Assembly (NCBI RefSeq): GCF_013403915.1
Contig: NZ_JABFDI010000017.1
Location: forward strand, 1 to 64,000
From: Winogradskyella pacifica
GTDB lineage: Bacteria > Bacteroidota > Bacteroidia > Flavobacteriales > Flavobacteriaceae
DNA: 64,000 nt
Reading direction: 5' to 3'
In this document: piece by piece, positions 26,327 through 41,504 of the stretch
Layout of the letters: each line of letters opens with the position of its first letter
Position numbering within the stretch: the first letter of the stretch is position 1
The notes under the pieces: model-generated
The model's input: only the letters and a program-made list of their open reading frames with translations
What the model was told of the DNA's origin: nothing
Database searches by the model: none
Program-made: the position numbers and the translations under genes

Positions 26327-26400
26327 GAAATTGAAATCGAACTTGAATTTGAAAGAAGAACACTTCAAATTCAGTTTCAACTTCAACTTCAAATTCAAAA
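26327..26400. repeat. Abutting GAANNN and TTCNNN tracts (empty bracket) between paaC and paaD
   Basis: GAAATTGAAATCGAACTTGA and so on, then about 10 bases, then CTTCAAATTCAGTTTCAACT and so on up to paaD. The same two inverted tracts bracket the four-helix-bundle genes at the two preceding junctions, but here nothing lies between them. As RNA the two halves could pair into a long imperfect hairpin. Confidence 0.65.
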
Positions 26401-26401
26401 A

Positions 26402-26902
26402 ATGACTACAACAGAACAAAACATAGACGAAATCTTAATTCCAATTTTGGAAAAAGTTTCCGATCCCGAGATCCCCGTATTATCCATCATGGATATGGGA
26501 GTGGTACGTTCTGCGGTTATAGAAAATAATATCGTTAAAGTCGAAATCACACCAACCTATAGTGGTTGTCCAGCAATGGATGTGATTGGCGATGATATAA
26601 AATCAGCATTAAAACAAGCCGGATACGAGTCTAAAGTAGAATTGATTTTACATCCAGCATGGACCACCGATTGGATTACACCAAGAGGAAGAAAAGCATT
26701 AGAAGATTACGGAATTGCAGCACCTTTAAGCGCAGAAGCAGATAAAGATGTATTGCTTAACGATAAAAGAATAGTTAAGTGTACCAATTGTGGTTCACAA
26801 AACACAAGATTAGTAAGTCAGTTTGGTTCCACAGCTTGTAAAGCGCAGTTTCAATGTGACGATTGTCAAGAACCATTTGATTATTTCAAGTGCTTAAAAT
26901 AA
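26402..26902 (+). CDS. paaD: Phenylacetyl-CoA epoxidase maturation subunit PaaD
   Basis: A 166-residue protein with an N-terminal MIP18/SufT-like iron-sulfur assembly domain (PEIPVLSIMDMGVVRSAVIE, then TPTYSGCPAMDVIGDDIK) and a C-terminal zinc-ribbon-like segment with CTNCGSQNTR, then CDDC and a final Cys. In characterised systems PaaD is needed for assembly or maturation of the epoxidase metal sites. Confidence 0.94.
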   Translation: MTTTEQNIDEILIPILEKVSDPEIPVLSIMDMGVVRSAVIENNIVKVEITPTYSGCPAMDVIGDDIKSALKQAGYESKVELILHPAWTTDWITPRGRKALEDYGIAAPLSAEADKDVLLNDKRIVKCTNCGSQNTRLVSQFGSTACKAQFQCDDCQEPFDYFKCLK

Positions 26903-26942
26903 AGTAAAAGTCAGATTTGAAACTAAAAATCTAAATCGAACG

Positions 26943-26973
26943 ATTGTCCCCTTGAGGGGACTTTAGGGGTGTT
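26943..26973 (+). repeat. GTCCCC palindromic repeat, copy a
   Basis: A 31-base unit: ATTGTCCCCTTGAGGGGAC plus a tail CTTTAGGGGTGTT. The core GTCCCCTTGAGGGGAC is a dyad with 7-bp arms, and the tail offers a second AGGGG that could pair with the same CCCCT. It lies between paaD and paaG. Seven related copies lie at 27793-41504. Confidence 0.75.
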
Positions 26974-26996
26974 TTAAATTAAAAATAAATTATAAA

Positions 26997-27776
26997 ATGA
27001 ACTCAATTCTTTTAAAAATAGAAAATAAAATAGCATACATAACGCTAAACCGACCAGAAGTATTTAATAGTTTCAATCGTGAAATGGCATTTTTATTGCA
27101 CGACACATTAGATGCTTGTGAAAAAAATGAAGAAGTGAGAGCTATTGTTTTAACCGGAAATGGAAAAGCATTTTGTGCTGGTCAAGATTTAAAAGAAGTG
27201 ACGGATCCAGATTTAAATCCTGGATTCAAAAAAATATTAGAAGAGCATTACAATCCAATAATTACTAGAATTAGAAATATTAAAAAACCAGTAATTGCAG
27301 CTGTAAACGGAGTAGCAGCAGGAGCGGGAGCAAACATTGCTTTAGCTTGTGATATTGTTGTCGCACATGAAAAAGTAAGTTTCATTCAAGCCTTTAGTTT
27401 AATTGGCTTAGTTCCGGATAGTGCAGGGACGTTCTTTTTACCAAGACTAATCGGTTTTCAAAAAGCATTAGCATTAGCGATGCTAGGTGATAAAATTGGA
27501 GCTGCAGAAGCTGAAAAAATGGGCATGATTTACAAATGTGTTCCGACAGAGGAATTTGAAGAAACGATTAATAAGCTAGCTTTGAAACTCGCAAACATGC
27601 CAACAAAAGCTCTTGGTATGATTAAAGAATTGTTTAATAAATCGATGACTAACGATTTAGAATCGCAATTAGCTTTAGAATCTAAATTACAAATAGAAGC
27701 CGCACAAAGTGACGATTACAAAGAAGGAGTCGCTGCATTTATAGAAAAACGTCAACCAAATTTTAAAGGAAATTAA
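26997..27776 (+). CDS. paaG: 2-(1,2-epoxy-1,2-dihydrophenyl)acetyl-CoA isomerase PaaG
   Basis: A crotonase-fold isomerase of 259 residues that converts ring-1,2-epoxyphenylacetyl-CoA to the oxepin. FCAGQDLKEVTDPDLNPG at about 60-77 and VNGVAAGAGANIALACDIVV at about 102-121 give the oxyanion-hole residues. SLIGLVPDSAGTFFLPRLIG is close to the PaaG version of this loop (an Asp where hydratases have Glu). The position in the operon supports PaaG over PaaF. Confidence 0.9.
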   Translation: MNSILLKIENKIAYITLNRPEVFNSFNREMAFLLHDTLDACEKNEEVRAIVLTGNGKAFCAGQDLKEVTDPDLNPGFKKILEEHYNPIITRIRNIKKPVIAAVNGVAAGAGANIALACDIVVAHEKVSFIQAFSLIGLVPDSAGTFFLPRLIGFQKALALAMLGDKIGAAEAEKMGMIYKCVPTEEFEETINKLALKLANMPTKALGMIKELFNKSMTNDLESQLALESKLQIEAAQSDDYKEGVAAFIEKRQPNFKGN

Positions 27777-27792
27777 AATTATTCATCCGAAT

Positions 27793-27823
27793 ATTGTCCC
27801 CTTAAGGGAGCTTTAGGGGTGTT
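27793..27823 (+). repeat. GTCCCC palindromic repeat, copy b
   Basis: A diverged copy with GTCCCCTTAAGGGAGC in place of the perfect dyad, in the same orientation as copy a. It lies 17 bases after paaG and is the first of two copies upstream of the DUF559 frame. Confidence 0.7.
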
Positions 27824-27903
27824 AAAACAGAATAGAAATAAAATGTAGATCTCATTGGAAACTCAAGAAACATTAATAAAGACAAAATAATACGCATCTG
27901 TGT

Positions 27904-27934
27904 ATTGTCCCCTTGAGGGGACCTTAGGGGTGTT
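27904..27934 (+). repeat. GTCCCC palindromic repeat, copy c
   Basis: Perfect dyad core with tail CCTTAGGGGTGTT, ending 11 bases before the GTG start of the DUF559-dehydratase frame. Confidence 0.75.
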
Positions 27935-27944
27935 AAAATAAAAA

Positions 27945-29276
27945 GTGAAAAATAAAATTATTCCATACAATCCAAAACTTAAAGAATACGCAAGAGAGCT
28001 AAGAAAAAATAGCACACTTGCAGAGGTTTTAATGTGGAAAGCTATTAAAAATCAAGCGCTAGATGTTCAGTTTCATAGACAAGTTCCGATGCTAAATTAT
28101 ATAGTAGATTTTTATTGTCACGAGCTTATGTTAGCTATTGAAATTGATGGTGATTCACACGGTTTTAGATATTTTGAAGATAAAAATAGACAGTGTGAAC
28201 TTGAAAAATTAGGTGTCGAGTTTATCAGATTCTCTGATTCGGATGTAAAAAATAATATGTTTAGTGTTTCTATGACTTTAGAAGAAAAAATTAAATCTTT
28301 AAGAACACCCCTCAAGTCCCCTCAAGGGGACAATCCATGCGATTTAAAACAAACCCTCATACAAACCCACAACCGAATAAAACCCTTTATTCACAAAACA
28401 CTTGTGTTAACATCGCAGTTGTTAAATGAAAAAGCAGGGTGTAACCTGTTTTTTAAGTGTGAGAACTTTCAAAAAATGGGTGCCTTCAAAATGCGAGGTG
28501 CTGCTAATGCCATTTTATCACTTTCAGAAGAAGAAAGACAGCGAGGAGTGGTGACACATTCGTCAGGTAATTTTGCTCAAGCGGTGTCATTAGCGGCGCA
28601 GAAATTAGGCGTTAAGGCATACATTGTAATGCCAGAAAATGCACCACAAGTCAAAAAAAATGCGGTTAAAACTTATGAGGGAGAAATCATAGAATGTGAA
28701 TCGACACCTCAAGCAAGAGAAGCAACAGCTAATAAAATTAAAGAAGAAAAAGGAGCATCATTTTTACATCCATCAAATCAAGATGAGGTGATTTATGGTA
28801 ACAGTACAGCAGCAATTGAGCTTTTAGAAGAACAACCAAATTTAGATATTATTCTAGCACCTGTTGGAGGAGGAGGTCTTATTGCAGGAACCGCTTTGGC
28901 AGCACATTATTTTTCAAAAAAATGTAAAGTGATTGGTGCTGAGCCTAAAGCTGTAGATGATGCCTATCGCTCATTAATTTCAGGTAAAATAGAAACAAAC
29001 ACTACGTTTGCAACTATTGCTGATGGACTAAGAACACATTTAGGCGATCGTAATTTTCCTATAATTCAAAAACATGTAGAGAAAATAATTTGTGTGGAAG
29101 AAGATGAAATCATTAAAGCTATGCAATTGATTTGGGAACGTATGAAAATTATTGTAGAACCATCAAGTGCTGTAGCCTTTGCTGCTGTGTTGAAGAATAG
29201 AAAAGAATTTGCAACTAAAAACGTAGGAATCATTTTATCTGGCGGTAATGTAGATGTGAGAAATTTACCGTTTTGA
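27945..29276 (+). CDS. DUF559/Vsr-like nuclease fused in frame to a serine/threonine dehydratase-like PLP enzyme
   Basis: One uninterrupted 443-codon frame from a GTG holds two unrelated parts. Residues 1-119 are a complete DUF559 domain of the PD-(D/E)XK/Vsr type: LRKNSTLAEVLMWKAI, QFHRQVPMLNYIVDFYCHEL, LAIEIDGDSHGF and GVEFIRFSDSDV. Residues 120-130 (RTPLKSPQGDN) are encoded by an inverted copy of the GTCCCC repeat. Residues about 132-443 are a fold-type II PLP dehydratase (KCENFQKMGAFKMRGAAN with the PLP lysine, SSGNFAQAV, APVGGGGLIAGTA, ILSGGN) of nearly full family length, similar to threonine dehydratase or serine racemase. The dehydratase part has no early ATG of its own in frame, and the nearest ATG at 28337 is out of frame. 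It is either made as the fusion or hardly at all. It lies between paaG and paaH and has no known role in phenylacetate breakdown. Confidence 0.85.
   Translation: MKNKIIPYNPKLKEYARELRKNSTLAEVLMWKAIKNQALDVQFHRQVPMLNYIVDFYCHELMLAIEIDGDSHGFRYFEDKNRQCELEKLGVEFIRFSDSDVKNNMFSVSMTLEEKIKSLRTPLKSPQGDNPCDLKQTLIQTHNRIKPFIHKTLVLTSQLLNEKAGCNLFFKCENFQKMGAFKMRGAANAILSLSEEERQRGVVTHSSGNFAQAVSLAAQKLGVKAYIVMPENAPQVKKNAVKTYEGEIIECESTPQAREATANKIKEEKGASFLHPSNQDEVIYGNSTAAIELLEEQPNLDIILAPVGGGGLIAGTALAAHYFSKKCKVIGAEPKAVDDAYRSLISGKIETNTTFATIADGLRTHLGDRNFPIIQKHVEKIICVEEDEIIKAMQLIWERMKIIVEPSSAVAFAAVLKNRKEFATKNVGIILSGGNVDVRNLPF
28304..28334 (-). repeat. GTCCCC palindromic repeat, copy d, inside the fusion frame
   Basis: Inverted relative to copies a-c and translated as part of the linker of the DUF559-dehydratase fusion. 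With copies b and c it brackets the nuclease domain by converging repeats. Confidence 0.8.
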
Positions 29277-29282
29277 TTAACG

Positions 29283-29313
29283 ATTGTCCCCTTGAGGGGA
29301 CTTTAGGGGTGTT
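29283..29313 (+). repeat. GTCCCC palindromic repeat, copy e
   Basis: Perfect core plus CTTTAGGGGTGTT, identical to copy a through the 31-base unit. It begins six bases after the fusion stop. Confidence 0.75.
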
Positions 29314-29429
29314 TAGACATTTTAGAATAAAGATTAAAAGAAAACGATGAATTAATTTCAATTTTTGTTGTTAGCATTAAAACAGCTTCAAACAAGTTGA
29401 AATCATAAAATATAGATGGAATATCAGGT

Positions 29430-32439: not shown

Positions 32440-32486
32440 AAATAGAAGTTTCAATTATCGACTTCAATTTCAATTTCAATTTCAAA
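32440..32486. repeat. Period-6 TTCNNN tract before paaJ
   Basis: GAAATAGAAG followed by TTTCAATTATCGACTTCAAT and further TTCAAT units up to the paaJ start. It is mainly the right-hand half of the bracket seen in the paaA-D junctions. Confidence 0.55.
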
Positions 32487-32487
32487 C

Positions 32488-33699
32488 ATGGAAGCATACA
32501 TAATAGACGGCATTAGAACACCAATAGGAAACTACAAAGGCACATTATCTGCGGTAAGAACGGATGATTTAGGAGCATTAGTAATTTCAGAAATTGTAAA
32601 ACGAAATCCAAGCATCCCAAAGGAAGCGTATGACGATGTGATAATGGGTTGCGCAAACCAAGCAGGAGAAGACAATCGTAATGTTGCGAGAATGTCATCC
32701 TTATTAGCAGGTTTGCCATTTACCGTTCCTGGAGAAACTGTAAACCGTTTATGTAGCTCTGGATTATCAGCAATAATTCATGCAAATCGTGCCATAAAAG
32801 CAGGAGATGGAGACGTCTTTATTTCTGGTGGCGTGGAGAATATGACGCGCGGACCATACGTAATGGCAAAACCATCTACGGCATTTGGAGGCGATTCCAA
32901 AATGTACGATTCTACTTTCGGATGGCGTTTTATCAATCCGAAAATGCAACAAATGTACGGAACTGATGGCATGGGGAATACTGCCGAAAATCTTGTCGAA
33001 AAATATAATATCTCACGAGAAGATCAAGATAAGTTTGCACTTTGGAGCCAAATGAAAGCAACCAAAGCACAAGAAAACGGACGCTTAGCAAAAGAAATTG
33101 TAACCGTTGAAATTCCACAGCGTAAAAAAGATCCAATTCTTTTTTCTAAAGATGAATTTGTAAAACCAACATCATCTTTAGAAGTTTTAGGAAAACTAAG
33201 ACCTGCATTCAAAAAAGAAGGTGGAAGTGTAACTGCTGGAAATTCTTCAGGATTAAACGATGGAGCAGCAGCAACTATTATCGCTTCAGCAGATGCAGTA
33301 AAAAAATACAACCTAAAACCATTAGCACGCATAGTAAGTTCTGCAGTGGTTGGTGTCGAGCCAAGAATTATGGGGATTGGTCCTGTACAAGCTTCTAATA
33401 AAGCATTGGCAAAAGCAGGATTGACCATGGAAGATATGGATATTATCGAGCTTAACGAAGCCTTTGCAGCGCAAGCATTAGCGTGTATTCGCGCTTGGGG
33501 ATTGGCAGATAACGATCCGCGAATTAATCCAAATGGAGGCGCAATTGCTATTGGTCATCCGCTTGGTGTTACAGGTGCAAGAGTTGCTTATTCTGCAGCG
33601 TTAGAGTTGAAGGAAAAAAATAAAAAATATGCGTTGATTACTATGTGTATTGGTGTTGGTCAAGGTTATGCAGCAATTATTGAAAATGTAAGTAAGTAA
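32488..33699 (+). CDS. paaJ: 3-oxoadipyl-CoA thiolase PaaJ
   Basis: A 403-residue thiolase that cleaves 3-oxoadipyl-CoA to succinyl-CoA and acetyl-CoA, and in E. coli also acts on 3-oxo-5,6-dehydrosuberyl-CoA. The acylated Cys is in VNRLCSSGLSAI at about 89-100, the His in AIGHPLGVTGAR, and the second catalytic Cys in MCIGVGQG near the C-terminus. LNEAFAAQALACIR is the conserved NEAF block. The start MEAYIIDGIRTPIG is typical. Confidence 0.94.
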   Translation: MEAYIIDGIRTPIGNYKGTLSAVRTDDLGALVISEIVKRNPSIPKEAYDDVIMGCANQAGEDNRNVARMSSLLAGLPFTVPGETVNRLCSSGLSAIIHANRAIKAGDGDVFISGGVENMTRGPYVMAKPSTAFGGDSKMYDSTFGWRFINPKMQQMYGTDGMGNTAENLVEKYNISREDQDKFALWSQMKATKAQENGRLAKEIVTVEIPQRKKDPILFSKDEFVKPTSSLEVLGKLRPAFKKEGGSVTAGNSSGLNDGAAATIIASADAVKKYNLKPLARIVSSAVVGVEPRIMGIGPVQASNKALAKAGLTMEDMDIIELNEAFAAQALACIRAWGLADNDPRINPNGGAIAIGHPLGVTGARVAYSAALELKEKNKKYALITMCIGVGQGYAAIIENVSK

Positions 33700-33707
33700 A
33701 ATAATTT

Positions 33708-33798
33708 GGGCGTTACCTAAAGGTCAGGCTTTCGGCAGTCGCTTTTTTTGAGAAAAACAAAAAAGAGCTTCAACAAATACCTCAATCCTTAACGCACT
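33708..33798 (+). repeat. GGCGTTAC...CTTAACGC element, copy C
   Basis: Begins GGGCGTTACCTAAAGGTCAG 8 bases after the paaJ stop and ends CAATCCTTAACGC. Inside it a run of T, GAG and a run of A (CTTTTTTTGAGAAAAACAAA) form a hairpin. Confidence 0.55.
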
Positions 33799-38814: not shown

Positions 38815-40140
38815 ATGATTTTTGAATTAAAGATGCCCAAAATGGGCGAAAGTATAACCGAAGGGACAATTATCAATTGGTTAATATCAGAAGGAGACTC
38901 TTTCGAAGAAGGAGATATTATACTAGAAGTAGCAACAGATAAGGTTGATAACGAAGTGCCAGCACCAGCATCAGGAACTTTAATGAAAACCATGTTTCAA
39001 GCAAAAGATGTTGTGCCTGTTGGAGAGGTTATGGCAATTCTTGAAGTTTCAGAAGAAAAGAAATCGAAAACGGATGTCATTTCGACAGAGCGAGGAACGA
39101 GTGACGAGAAATCTCATAGTCAAAAGAAAGAGAAATTTCAAAAAGGACCTAAGCCAGTTCAAAAACCTTCAGGTTCAACTTCAGTTTCAAGTTCATCTTC
39201 ATTTTCAACTTCAAACACCTTCTTTTCGCCATTAATTATTTCAATAGCCAAAGAACATCACATTAGTTTTGAAGAGTTAGCACGTATTCCCGCTACAGGA
39301 AACGAAGGCAGACTTCGTAAAAGCGATGTGTTTCAATATATAGACGAAGGACGACCTTACAAATTCGCACAACCAGTAGCCGAAAAAGATCCAACAGCTT
39401 ATAGAATTCCACAATTAAACTTCGATAAAGGCAAAGGAAAAGTAATCGAAATGGACAGAATGCGCCAAATGATTGCAGATCACATGGTGTACTCAAAACA
39501 TACATCACCTCATGTTACTGCTTATGTAGAAGCAGACATGACGAATATGGTAAATTGGAGAAACGCAAACAAAGTTGCCTTTCAAGAAAAGCATGGCGAA
39601 CGTTTAACCTTCACACCATTATTTGTAGAAGCTGTAGCGAAAGCAGTAAAAGATTTCCCAAACATTAATGCATCGGTAGATGGTAATAACATTATTGTAA
39701 AAGAAGATATTAATATTGGTATGGCAACAGCATTACCAAGTGGAAACTTAATCGTTCCTGTAGTAAAAAATGCAGATGCTAAAAATTTAAAAGAGATTGC
39801 TAGTAACGTAAACGAATTAGCAGGAAAAGCTAGAGAAAACAAACTAGCAGGAGACGATATAAAAGGCAGCACCTTCACAATTTCTAACGTAGGAACTTTT
39901 GGAAGTGTCATGGGAACACCAATTATTAATCAACCAGAAGTTGCCATTTTAGCATTAGGAATAATCAAAAAACGACCAGAAGTTATCACTACTGAGAAAG
40001 GAGACCAAATAGCTATTCGTAGCATGATGTACTTATCGCTCTCTTTCGATCATCGCGTAGTAGACGGATTCTTAGGAGGAAGTTTTGTGCGACGAGTAGC
40101 CGATTATTTTGAGCAATTTGATATTAATAGAGAAATATAA
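38815..40140 (+). CDS. Branched-chain 2-oxoacid dehydrogenase E2 (dihydrolipoamide acyltransferase)
   Basis: A 441-residue acyltransferase core. The ATG at 38815 is chosen because IFELKMPKMGESITEG is the start of the lipoyl domain; the longer frame from 38761 adds 18 unrelated residues. The lipoyl Lys is in VATDKVDNEV (about 39-48). The peripheral-subunit binding domain is at about 140-175 (PLIISIAKEHHISFEELARI). The catalytic domain fills the rest, with SLSFDHRVVDG holding the active His. The linker at about 80-140 is unusual: part of it (DVISTERGTSDEKSH) is coded by REP-like DNA and part (SGSTSVSSSSSFSTS) by a period-6 TTC tract like those between the paa genes. Specificity for branched-chain acids is inferred from ilvE and the fused E1 next to it. 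Confidence 0.9.
   Translation: MIFELKMPKMGESITEGTIINWLISEGDSFEEGDIILEVATDKVDNEVPAPASGTLMKTMFQAKDVVPVGEVMAILEVSEEKKSKTDVISTERGTSDEKSHSQKKEKFQKGPKPVQKPSGSTSVSSSSSFSTSNTFFSPLIISIAKEHHISFEELARIPATGNEGRLRKSDVFQYIDEGRPYKFAQPVAEKDPTAYRIPQLNFDKGKGKVIEMDRMRQMIADHMVYSKHTSPHVTAYVEADMTNMVNWRNANKVAFQEKHGERLTFTPLFVEAVAKAVKDFPNINASVDGNNIIVKEDINIGMATALPSGNLIVPVVKNADAKNLKEIASNVNELAGKARENKLAGDDIKGSTFTISNVGTFGSVMGTPIINQPEVAILALGIIKKRPEVITTEKGDQIAIRSMMYLSLSFDHRVVDGFLGGSFVRRVADYFEQFDINREI
39074..39118 (+). repeat. REP-like sequence inside the E2 coding region
   Basis: GTCATTTCGACAGAGCGAGG and on to GACGAGAAATCTCATAG. From memory, this matches the GTCATTTCGAC...GAGAAATCTCA intergenic repeats common in Bacteroidetes. 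It is translated as part of the E2 linker. Only one copy is in the window, so family membership needs a genome search. Confidence 0.5.
39160..39216 (+). repeat. Period-6 TTC/TCA tract inside the E2 coding region
   Basis: CCTTCAGGTTCAACTTCAGT and further NNNTTCA units, the same pattern as in the paa junctions. Here it is read in the frame TCA-NNN and gives alternating serines (SGSTSVSSSSSFSTS). Confidence 0.6.
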
Positions 40141-40147
40141 ATTCAGA

Positions 40148-40177
40148 ATTGTCCCCTGAGGGGACTTTAGGGGTGTT
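40148..40177 (+). repeat. GTCCCC palindromic repeat, copy f
   Basis: As copy a, but the dyad core is one base shorter (GTCCCCTGAGGGGAC). It lies seven bases after the E2 stop. Confidence 0.72.
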
Positions 40178-41279: not shown

Positions 41280-41421
41280 GGGTGTTACCACAAGGGTCGG
41301 GCTTTTACTACTCGCTCTTTTTGAAAAAAGCAAAAAGGAGCTTCAACAAATTGTTTCAATTGCGAAGCAATCACGATTTCTTATTTATTAAATTAAGAAT
41401 GAACGAGTAATCCCTAACGCA
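41280..41421 (+). repeat. GGCGTTAC...CTTAACGC element, copy D
   Basis: Begins GGGTGTTACCACAAGGGTCG 8 bases after ilvE and ends GTAATCCCTAACGC. CTCTTTTTGAAAAAAGCAAA and AGGAGCTTCAACAAA are shared with copy C; about 50 bases of extra AT-rich sequence lie before the right end. Confidence 0.5.
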
Positions 41422-41423
41422 AC

Positions 41424-41504
41424 ACACCCCTAAAGTCCCCTCAAGGGGACAATAGTTCAAAGATTATTCAGAGGATTGTCCCCTTGAGGGGACTTCAGGG
41501 GTGT
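41424..41504. repeat. Head-to-head pair of GTCCCC repeats, copies g (-) and h (+)
   Basis: Copy g at 41424-41453 is inverted and copy h at 41475-41504 is direct, with 21 bases between them. Each has the perfect dyad core, and together they form a larger inverted repeat able to fold into one long hairpin, like the paired units of enterobacterial BIMEs. It lies 47 bases before the fused E1 gene, with an element of the GGCGTTAC family directly to the left. Confidence 0.75.

Follow-up and report, generated by a model that had tools for sequence, protein, structure and literature searches.

DUF559 nuclease genes and GC-rich palindromic units as a putative REP-like mobile-element lineage in Winogradskyella pacifica and other bacteria

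We propose that the DUF559 gene of Winogradskyella pacifica and the short GC-rich palindromes around it belong to a single mobile-element lineage, in which the DUF559 protein would have the palindromic unit as its cognate site; we put the probability of this reading at roughly 0.7. Its basis is the co-location of gene and unit, the pairing of unit type with nuclease clade, presence and absence at orthologous sites, in-frame insertion into other genes, the protein fold and the active-site residues, from which we infer recognition and cleavage of the unit and a copying step; our confidence in any exact route of copying is low. The window, by which we mean the whole 64-kb stretch analysed, is contig 8 of a draft genome of 4.02 Mb in 94 contigs.

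The repeat, here termed unit A, is 30 nt long (ATTGTCCCCTTGAGGGGACTTTAGGGGTGT), and a search of the window allowing up to 8 mismatches finds eight copies, three at DUF559 and five others, all between 26943 and 41504 with none in the rest of the window; a preliminary description had likewise counted five further copies as far as 41.5 kb and none elsewhere. That description took the repeat to be a palindromic unit of 31 nt; a repeat it is, of 30 nt, but the palindromy does not extend beyond a 16-nt core (GTCCCCTTGAGGGGAC), and the GGGGTGT part belongs to a one-sided tail (TTTAGGGGTGT). Upstream of a crotonase-family gene lies a copy on the plus strand in which the hairpin is followed by its GGGGTGT tail (26943..26972). 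Two more plus-strand copies, at 27793..27822 (degenerate core, 3 mismatches) and 27904..27933, point their tails to DUF559, and the inverted copy at 28305..28334 (minus strand) is translated in frame as the linker TPLKSPQGDN. Another copy (29283..29312, plus) directly follows the DUF559-dehydratase fused gene, and a solitary one (40147..40176, plus) has a core short by one base. The last two form a tail-out inverted dimer with no gene inside at 41424..41504 (41424-41453 on the minus and 41475-41504 on the plus strand); this dimer is missing in the relative G032, and also in G048, where the flanks match more poorly. Scanned strictly for hairpins, the window as a whole yields seven, every one inside a unit A copy, and none of the mirror type. 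Genome-wide, the core occurs at 31 places at up to one mismatch, as compared to none for a reversed control pattern, and eight gene-free tail-out dimers of 81-149 nt were seen. The window also holds a pair of 60-nt direct repeats (33719-33778 and 41292-41351, 82% identity) with no relation to unit A, and tandem stretches of the TTCAAyTTCAA type at 26364-26400, 32451-32497 and 39162-39220.

The DUF559 (PF04480) part of the gene occupies 27945..28298 on the plus strand, with a GTG start and a domain match at 27975-28280 that scores 90.5 bits in the genome search and 87.1 bits with the curated Pfam model, against a cut-off of 20.6. Its bracketing by two direct upstream copies and one inverted copy stands as first described, but the protein does not end at the inverted copy: the frame stays open across it into a PALP-family dehydratase (28383..29273, plus; PF00291, 259.4 bits), which has lost the start codon of its unfused relatives, and the fused frame, 27945-29276, encodes 443 aa. 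The left flank is the plus-strand gene at 26997..27776, whose product we take to be of the crotonase (enoyl-CoA hydratase) family; in relatives that lack DUF559 a crotonase-family gene likewise neighbours the dehydratase. Among 60 congeners the dehydratase is present in 54, fused to DUF559 in 12 (frames of 444-468 aa) and unfused in 42 (311-334 aa). We inspected nine unfused and three fused loci; all nine unfused dehydratases begin MNKQTLI right behind the crotonase-family gene, and in fused loci that start codon is gone (e.g., DLKQTLIQTHNRIKPF), and all 12 fused proteins have linkers free of methionine (8 parsed, 4 by eye). The nearest unfused allele, that of G031, has a dehydratase 96% identical in the same gene order, without DUF559 and without unit A. 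We have high confidence that the window locus is an insertion between the crotonase gene and the dehydratase gene. In five loci without DUF559 (L384, L386, L387, L392 and L397) the same gap upstream of the dehydratase carries another palindrome, GTCATTCCTGCGAAGGCAGGAATC or a close variant.

Elsewhere in this genome there are, counting that of the window, three clear DUF559 genes, together with one weak match of 22.7 bits within a 1549-aa frame. Two of the three clear genes are flanked by unit A on both sides, for which rough arithmetic (about 23 clusters of 1 kb each in 4 Mb) gives a chance of less than 1% per gene; the third has a different palindrome on either side, within a 121-nt direct repeat. 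The second clade-A gene of the genome (L003 / L086, contig 1) is apparently broken near its start, with its first codons in another frame. At L071 and L072, clade-A genes stand as tandem pairs about 1 kb apart with units at each.

That different DUF559 genes keep company with different palindromes is a regular feature of the genus. A tree of 52 DUF559 domains separates clade A, to which the window's gene belongs, from a clade B (which includes L097, L099 and L102) and from a group of copies inside other genes; L091, a clade-A fragment of 47 aa, is excluded from the counts. Searched at up to 7 mismatches within 600 bp, unit A adjoins all 26 clade-A genes and none of the nine clade-B genes, 23 in-gene copies or two genes of a fourth kind, and a second unit, B, is found at 7 of the 9 clade-B genes. 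Copy numbers follow the same pattern, with a median of 11 unit A cores in the 20 of 60 congeners that have a clade-A gene, whole or broken, versus a median of 0 in the other 40, of which 24 have none (Mann-Whitney p = 3e-7). The palindromes are therefore not as common in genomes lacking the nuclease, an outcome that had been named beforehand as one that would speak against a link. Sixteen of the 40 nevertheless hold some copies, and since eight of these 40 gene-less congeners hold 6 to 35, unit A can persist without a clade-A gene. We hold the clade-specific pairing of nuclease and unit within the genus with high confidence. In G006, a genome with no DUF559 match, unit A forms clusters at L295, L296 and L297, and in two of these three it is interleaved with a longer variant, ACACCCCTAATGAGCTACGCTCGGTAATTTC...CTCAAGGGGACA.

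Unit presence varies between genomes. A comparison of strains at orthologous sites, as the preliminary description advised, covered eight gene-free unit sites of this genome. At six of them one or more relatives lack the unit, other DNA often occupying the place; at the remaining two all relatives inspected (one and two, respectively) still have it. Ten of 30 dimers have identical flanks of at least 3 nt, where about 4.9 would be expected, a clean target-site duplication was not found among these 30, and the junctions of intergenic sites are too blurred to place exactly.

The association of DUF559 with hairpins extends well beyond the genus and is more general than the preliminary description supposed; a lack of enrichment around DUF559 genes elsewhere had been named as a result that would refute the link, and the contrary was observed. 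We counted hairpins with a perfect 6-bp stem, an all-pyrimidine 5' arm containing at least 4 C and a loop of 0-9, within 300 bp of the gene, and found them in 195 of 222 rows, or 194 of 221 genes, one gene with the hairpin (L102 = L040) being counted twice. By comparison, mirror hairpins with a purine 5' arm lie within the same distance in 7 of the 222 rows, the same scan finds no pyrimidine-arm hairpin at control genes without DUF559 (recG, 0/30; the dehydratase, 0/23), and random placements within the same loci meet one in 14 of 210. The rows span the window's phylum, Proteobacteria and a Deinococcus. Within the genus the hairpin accompanies 21 of 26 solo genes, all 12 dehydratase fusions and 20 of 23 in-gene copies; in the phylum, 39 of 42 short and 23 of 27 long proteins; and beyond it, 70 of 80 loci from Proteobacteria and 10 of 12 chosen from a plasmid collection. 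These samples are not random: the 69 phylum loci comprise 29 from the phylum-wide search plus the first 40 others on its list, the proteobacterial set is the best 80 of 265 matches to one Azospirillum query (labelled from record titles, and including a Nitrospira MAG, L291), and the 12 plasmid-collection loci were hand-picked for spread out of 45 records. The strict scan leaves 27 rows with no pyrimidine-arm hairpin within 300 bp, among them the two plasmid-collection misses, Picosynechococcus and Novosphingobium; the former is the only cyanobacterial locus, and its GC hairpins have another arm type. In the genus, GC-rich hairpins number 5-9 per kb at up to 100 bp from DUF559 versus 0.12 per kb in recG loci. 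An earlier measure, counting any GC-rich stem, gave 41/42 and 24/27 against a control ("either side") of 0.326; because that background is high in GC-rich loci, we adopted the pyrimidine-arm measure with its mirror control instead. We hold the DUF559-hairpin association with high confidence. Function as a terminator or another local hairpin was considered as the main reading and rejected, because mirror hairpins and control genes are unenriched and because the unit sequence follows the nuclease clade.

Escherichia coli offers a distant parallel. Its YcjD is a PF04480 protein (166.7 bits), and in one E. coli chromosome the pattern GGGAGAGGGTTAGGGTGAGGG has 33 matches at up to 3 mismatches, as compared to 0 for the reversed control; one of the 33 lies 206 nt past the ycjD domain. 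As in the window, a PF04480 gene thus has a unit nearby, but the unit is of different sequence; these E. coli units are presumably the boxC repeats. The ycjD copy examined is intergenic, and 3361 of 5426 genomes match at least 80% of the ycjD region. At hrpB-mrcB the unit pair is intact in two aligned sequences, carries an internal deletion in one and is missing in two; unit presence varies likewise between strains at lldD-trmL, and the unit at yjgR-lptG is missing from J53, a derivative of K-12. According to one report, the sapF-fabI gap holds either ycjD or the eef efflux operon, depending on the E. coli lineage, so that eef can occupy the place of ycjD in other E. coli (PMC12817139).

DUF559 is also inserted inside genes, a conclusion in which we have high confidence. 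In 14 of 60 congeners it lies in frame within recG, splitting the RecG profile at about position 384 with nothing lost, and at the junctions stand units in inverted orientation, their tails pointing outward. In four recG alleles the insertion site holds a linker of 20-21 aa, compared with 4 aa in empty alleles, and in one shortened allele (L109) both half units are still readable. On a recG tree built from 31 of 44 rows (the 13 others, which did not fit the parsing pattern, being all empty alleles) the filled state is patchy, with six changes, at least four of them forced by strong branches, which is compatible with one old gain and many losses or with several gains. Curated models name metH, leuS and hsdR above cut-off as further hosts of in-frame DUF559, leuS at two insertion sites as judged by the junctions; for all three genes, different genomes repeat the same junction peptides. 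Pfam domains point to a class I tRNA synthetase (ileS-like), a second hsdR site, a UvrD-type helicase and a type-ISP enzyme; matches to icmF and an hsdM-like gene fall below the curated cut-off, in loci that are cut, and in hisF-like and GATase_5 proteins DUF559 is an end fusion. DUF559 is the only extra domain in the in-gene proteins scanned. No intein family appears among the domain matches of 19 fused or in-gene proteins (E 1e-10 or 1e-8), and Rfam returns no match for window positions 26900-29400. Orientation of the nearest units differs between the two settings: at 172 intergenic DUF559 genes tail-inward prevails (50 in/in, 9 out/out), and at 50 in-gene copies tail-outward (14 out/out, 2 in/in). 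We read the in-gene form as a compact element, and any one mechanism must cover both the tail-inward intergenic and the tail-outward in-gene arrangement.

The protein itself resembles a small homing-type nuclease. Its AlphaFold (AF2) model has a pLDDT of 89. Of the relatives with solved structures, the best are an uncharacterised protein of N. gonorrhoeae (3hrl) and the homing endonuclease I-Bth0305I (3r3p); Vsr also appears as a structural neighbour, with a weaker match than I-Bth0305I. The domain was first noted as complete, with its acidic and histidine positions kept, and indeed D55, E66, D68 and H72 are invariant across 28 aligned sequences and the motif [DE]F...E.[DE]G..H is retained in 119 of 121 domains. 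A profile seeded with YcjD as a PD-(D/E)XK member picked up Vsr (PMC1189080). A domain scan of the window's fused protein lists PALP, PF04480 and a sub-threshold MTES_1575 only, with no HUH tyrosine transposase. Our confidence that DUF559 would cleave the unit is moderate. A role in phage defence was considered and set aside: PADLOC gives weak matches only (DpdF and mREase_II, E about 0.001-0.003) for the window protein and none for YcjD. One DUF559 query has three matches among 50,697 phage records.

We envisage the following scenario. DUF559 would act as a small PD-(D/E)XK, homing-endonuclease-like nuclease whose cognate site is the 30-nt unit, with its GC hairpin, pyrimidine 5' arm and C-rich one-sided tail. 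Most likely the base of its own hairpin type is where it nicks or cuts. Repair of the broken end, or its joining at another place, may then copy units, inverted pairs of units and occasionally a whole unit-DUF559-unit block to new sites. Gene-free pairs would represent a non-autonomous form, as REPINs do to a RAYT. In the window, such a block would have landed between the crotonase and dehydratase genes and replaced the start codon of the latter, giving the fused protein.

Alternatively, DUF559 might simply be a homing endonuclease that cuts the unoccupied allele, homologous repair copying the block in, which would let it spread in populations at one fixed site, with the palindromes merely its ends. 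I-Bth0305I is among its nearest solved relatives, the recG insertions share one site with filled, empty and shortened alleles, junction peptides in metH, leuS and hsdR are repeated from genome to genome, and disrupted DUF559 copies with stops exist. Homing at one site, however, leaves the dozens of gene-free units dispersed in a genome unexplained, as it does the tracking of nuclease clade by unit type, and we think it unlikely as the full account. DUF559 resembles I-Bth0305I and its relatives in fold, sequence relationship and patchy same-site insertion, but differs from them in being palindrome-flanked, in its dispersed gene-free copies and in that no intron or intein was seen with it.

Two other explanations would loosen the tie between gene and unit. 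DUF559 could be a housekeeping, Vsr-like mismatch nuclease, near which hairpins collect as ordinary repeats or terminators. Such a role would suit the structural neighbourhood of Vsr, weaker as that match is than the one to I-Bth0305I, and the phenotype of VsrA, a Caulobacter DUF559 protein linked to mismatch repair (PMC12907096). It sits poorly with the lack of enrichment of mirror-type hairpins and at control genes, with a patchy presence (counting weak matches, 43 of 60 congeners and 171 of 296 genomes across the phylum have PF04480), and with the location of DUF559 within housekeeping genes, so we give it little credence. Slightly less still do we credit the notion that the palindromes are moved by another enzyme, for instance some RAYT-like or other transposase, with DUF559 as cargo caught between them: the 16 of 40 congeners with units and no clade-A DUF559 would fit, but gene and unit are paired in several phyla, and specifically by clade within the genus, DUF559 is alone as an extra domain in the in-gene proteins scanned, and the active-site residues are kept in 119 of 121 domains.

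The reading of gene and units as one lineage invites comparison with known REP systems. REP/RAYT elements (REPtrons and REPINs; the GTAG superfamily) share with it a small gene beside dispersed palindromes of 20-40 nt, inverted dimers, clade-specific pairing, gene-free copies and units within genes, as described in PMC3733652, and DUF559 is, like a RAYT in its REPtron, a single gene flanked by palindromes dispersed genome-wide. They differ in that DUF559 is a PD-(D/E)XK enzyme and RAYT an HUH tyrosine transposase, that the tail of unit A is C-rich and the unit lacks GTAG, and that the DUF559 gene itself sits inside housekeeping genes. A simplified GTAG-stem pattern is found near DUF559 in few loci (4/80, 0/42 and 1/27; in the 80, 4 near and 2 far), numbers too small for enrichment to be assessed. 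Because enzyme class and tag both differ, we regard the system as one that works like RAYT-REP without being a member. The CGTC-tagged REPs, including Rickettsia RPE-4/RPE-6, resemble the units as palindromes with mostly tail-out dimers and intragenic copies, and apparently have no dedicated transposase according to a 2013 survey (PMC3733652); unlike them, unit A has no CGTC. The CGTC pattern is only slightly commoner near proteobacterial DUF559 (0.13 per kb) than at a distance (0.08 per kb), and at 6/80, 1/42 and 0/27 DUF559 loci; unit B contains the letters CGTC. As partners of the window's gene, CGTC and GTAG REPs are both rejected, unit A being without either tag. Among the open-access papers listed in our searches, none ties DUF559 to palindromes in its title or at the start of its abstract.

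The RAYT-like role first suggested for DUF559 is thus supported by the enrichment at DUF559 and the contrast in copy number; the clade pairing, a pattern not limited to one phylum, empty orthologous sites and in-frame housekeeping insertions take the case further. We lean towards a broader proposal, that a third REP-like superfamily, spread across bacteria and with clade-matched units, has its dedicated enzymes in the DUF559 proteins, and that its mobile block can insert in frame even into essential genes, where it is tolerated or spliced; examples of its C-tailed hairpins are CCCTCACCC-n-TCTCCC..GGGAGA. E. coli has both ycjD and such units, so the idea is testable in K-12. If true, a "domain of unknown function" would gain a purpose, the spread of many short GC palindromes, which are among the commonest bacterial repeats, would be explained, and there would be a second, non-HUH route to REP-like elements, while the insertions in leuS, metH and recG raise the question of how proteins carry a foreign nuclease.
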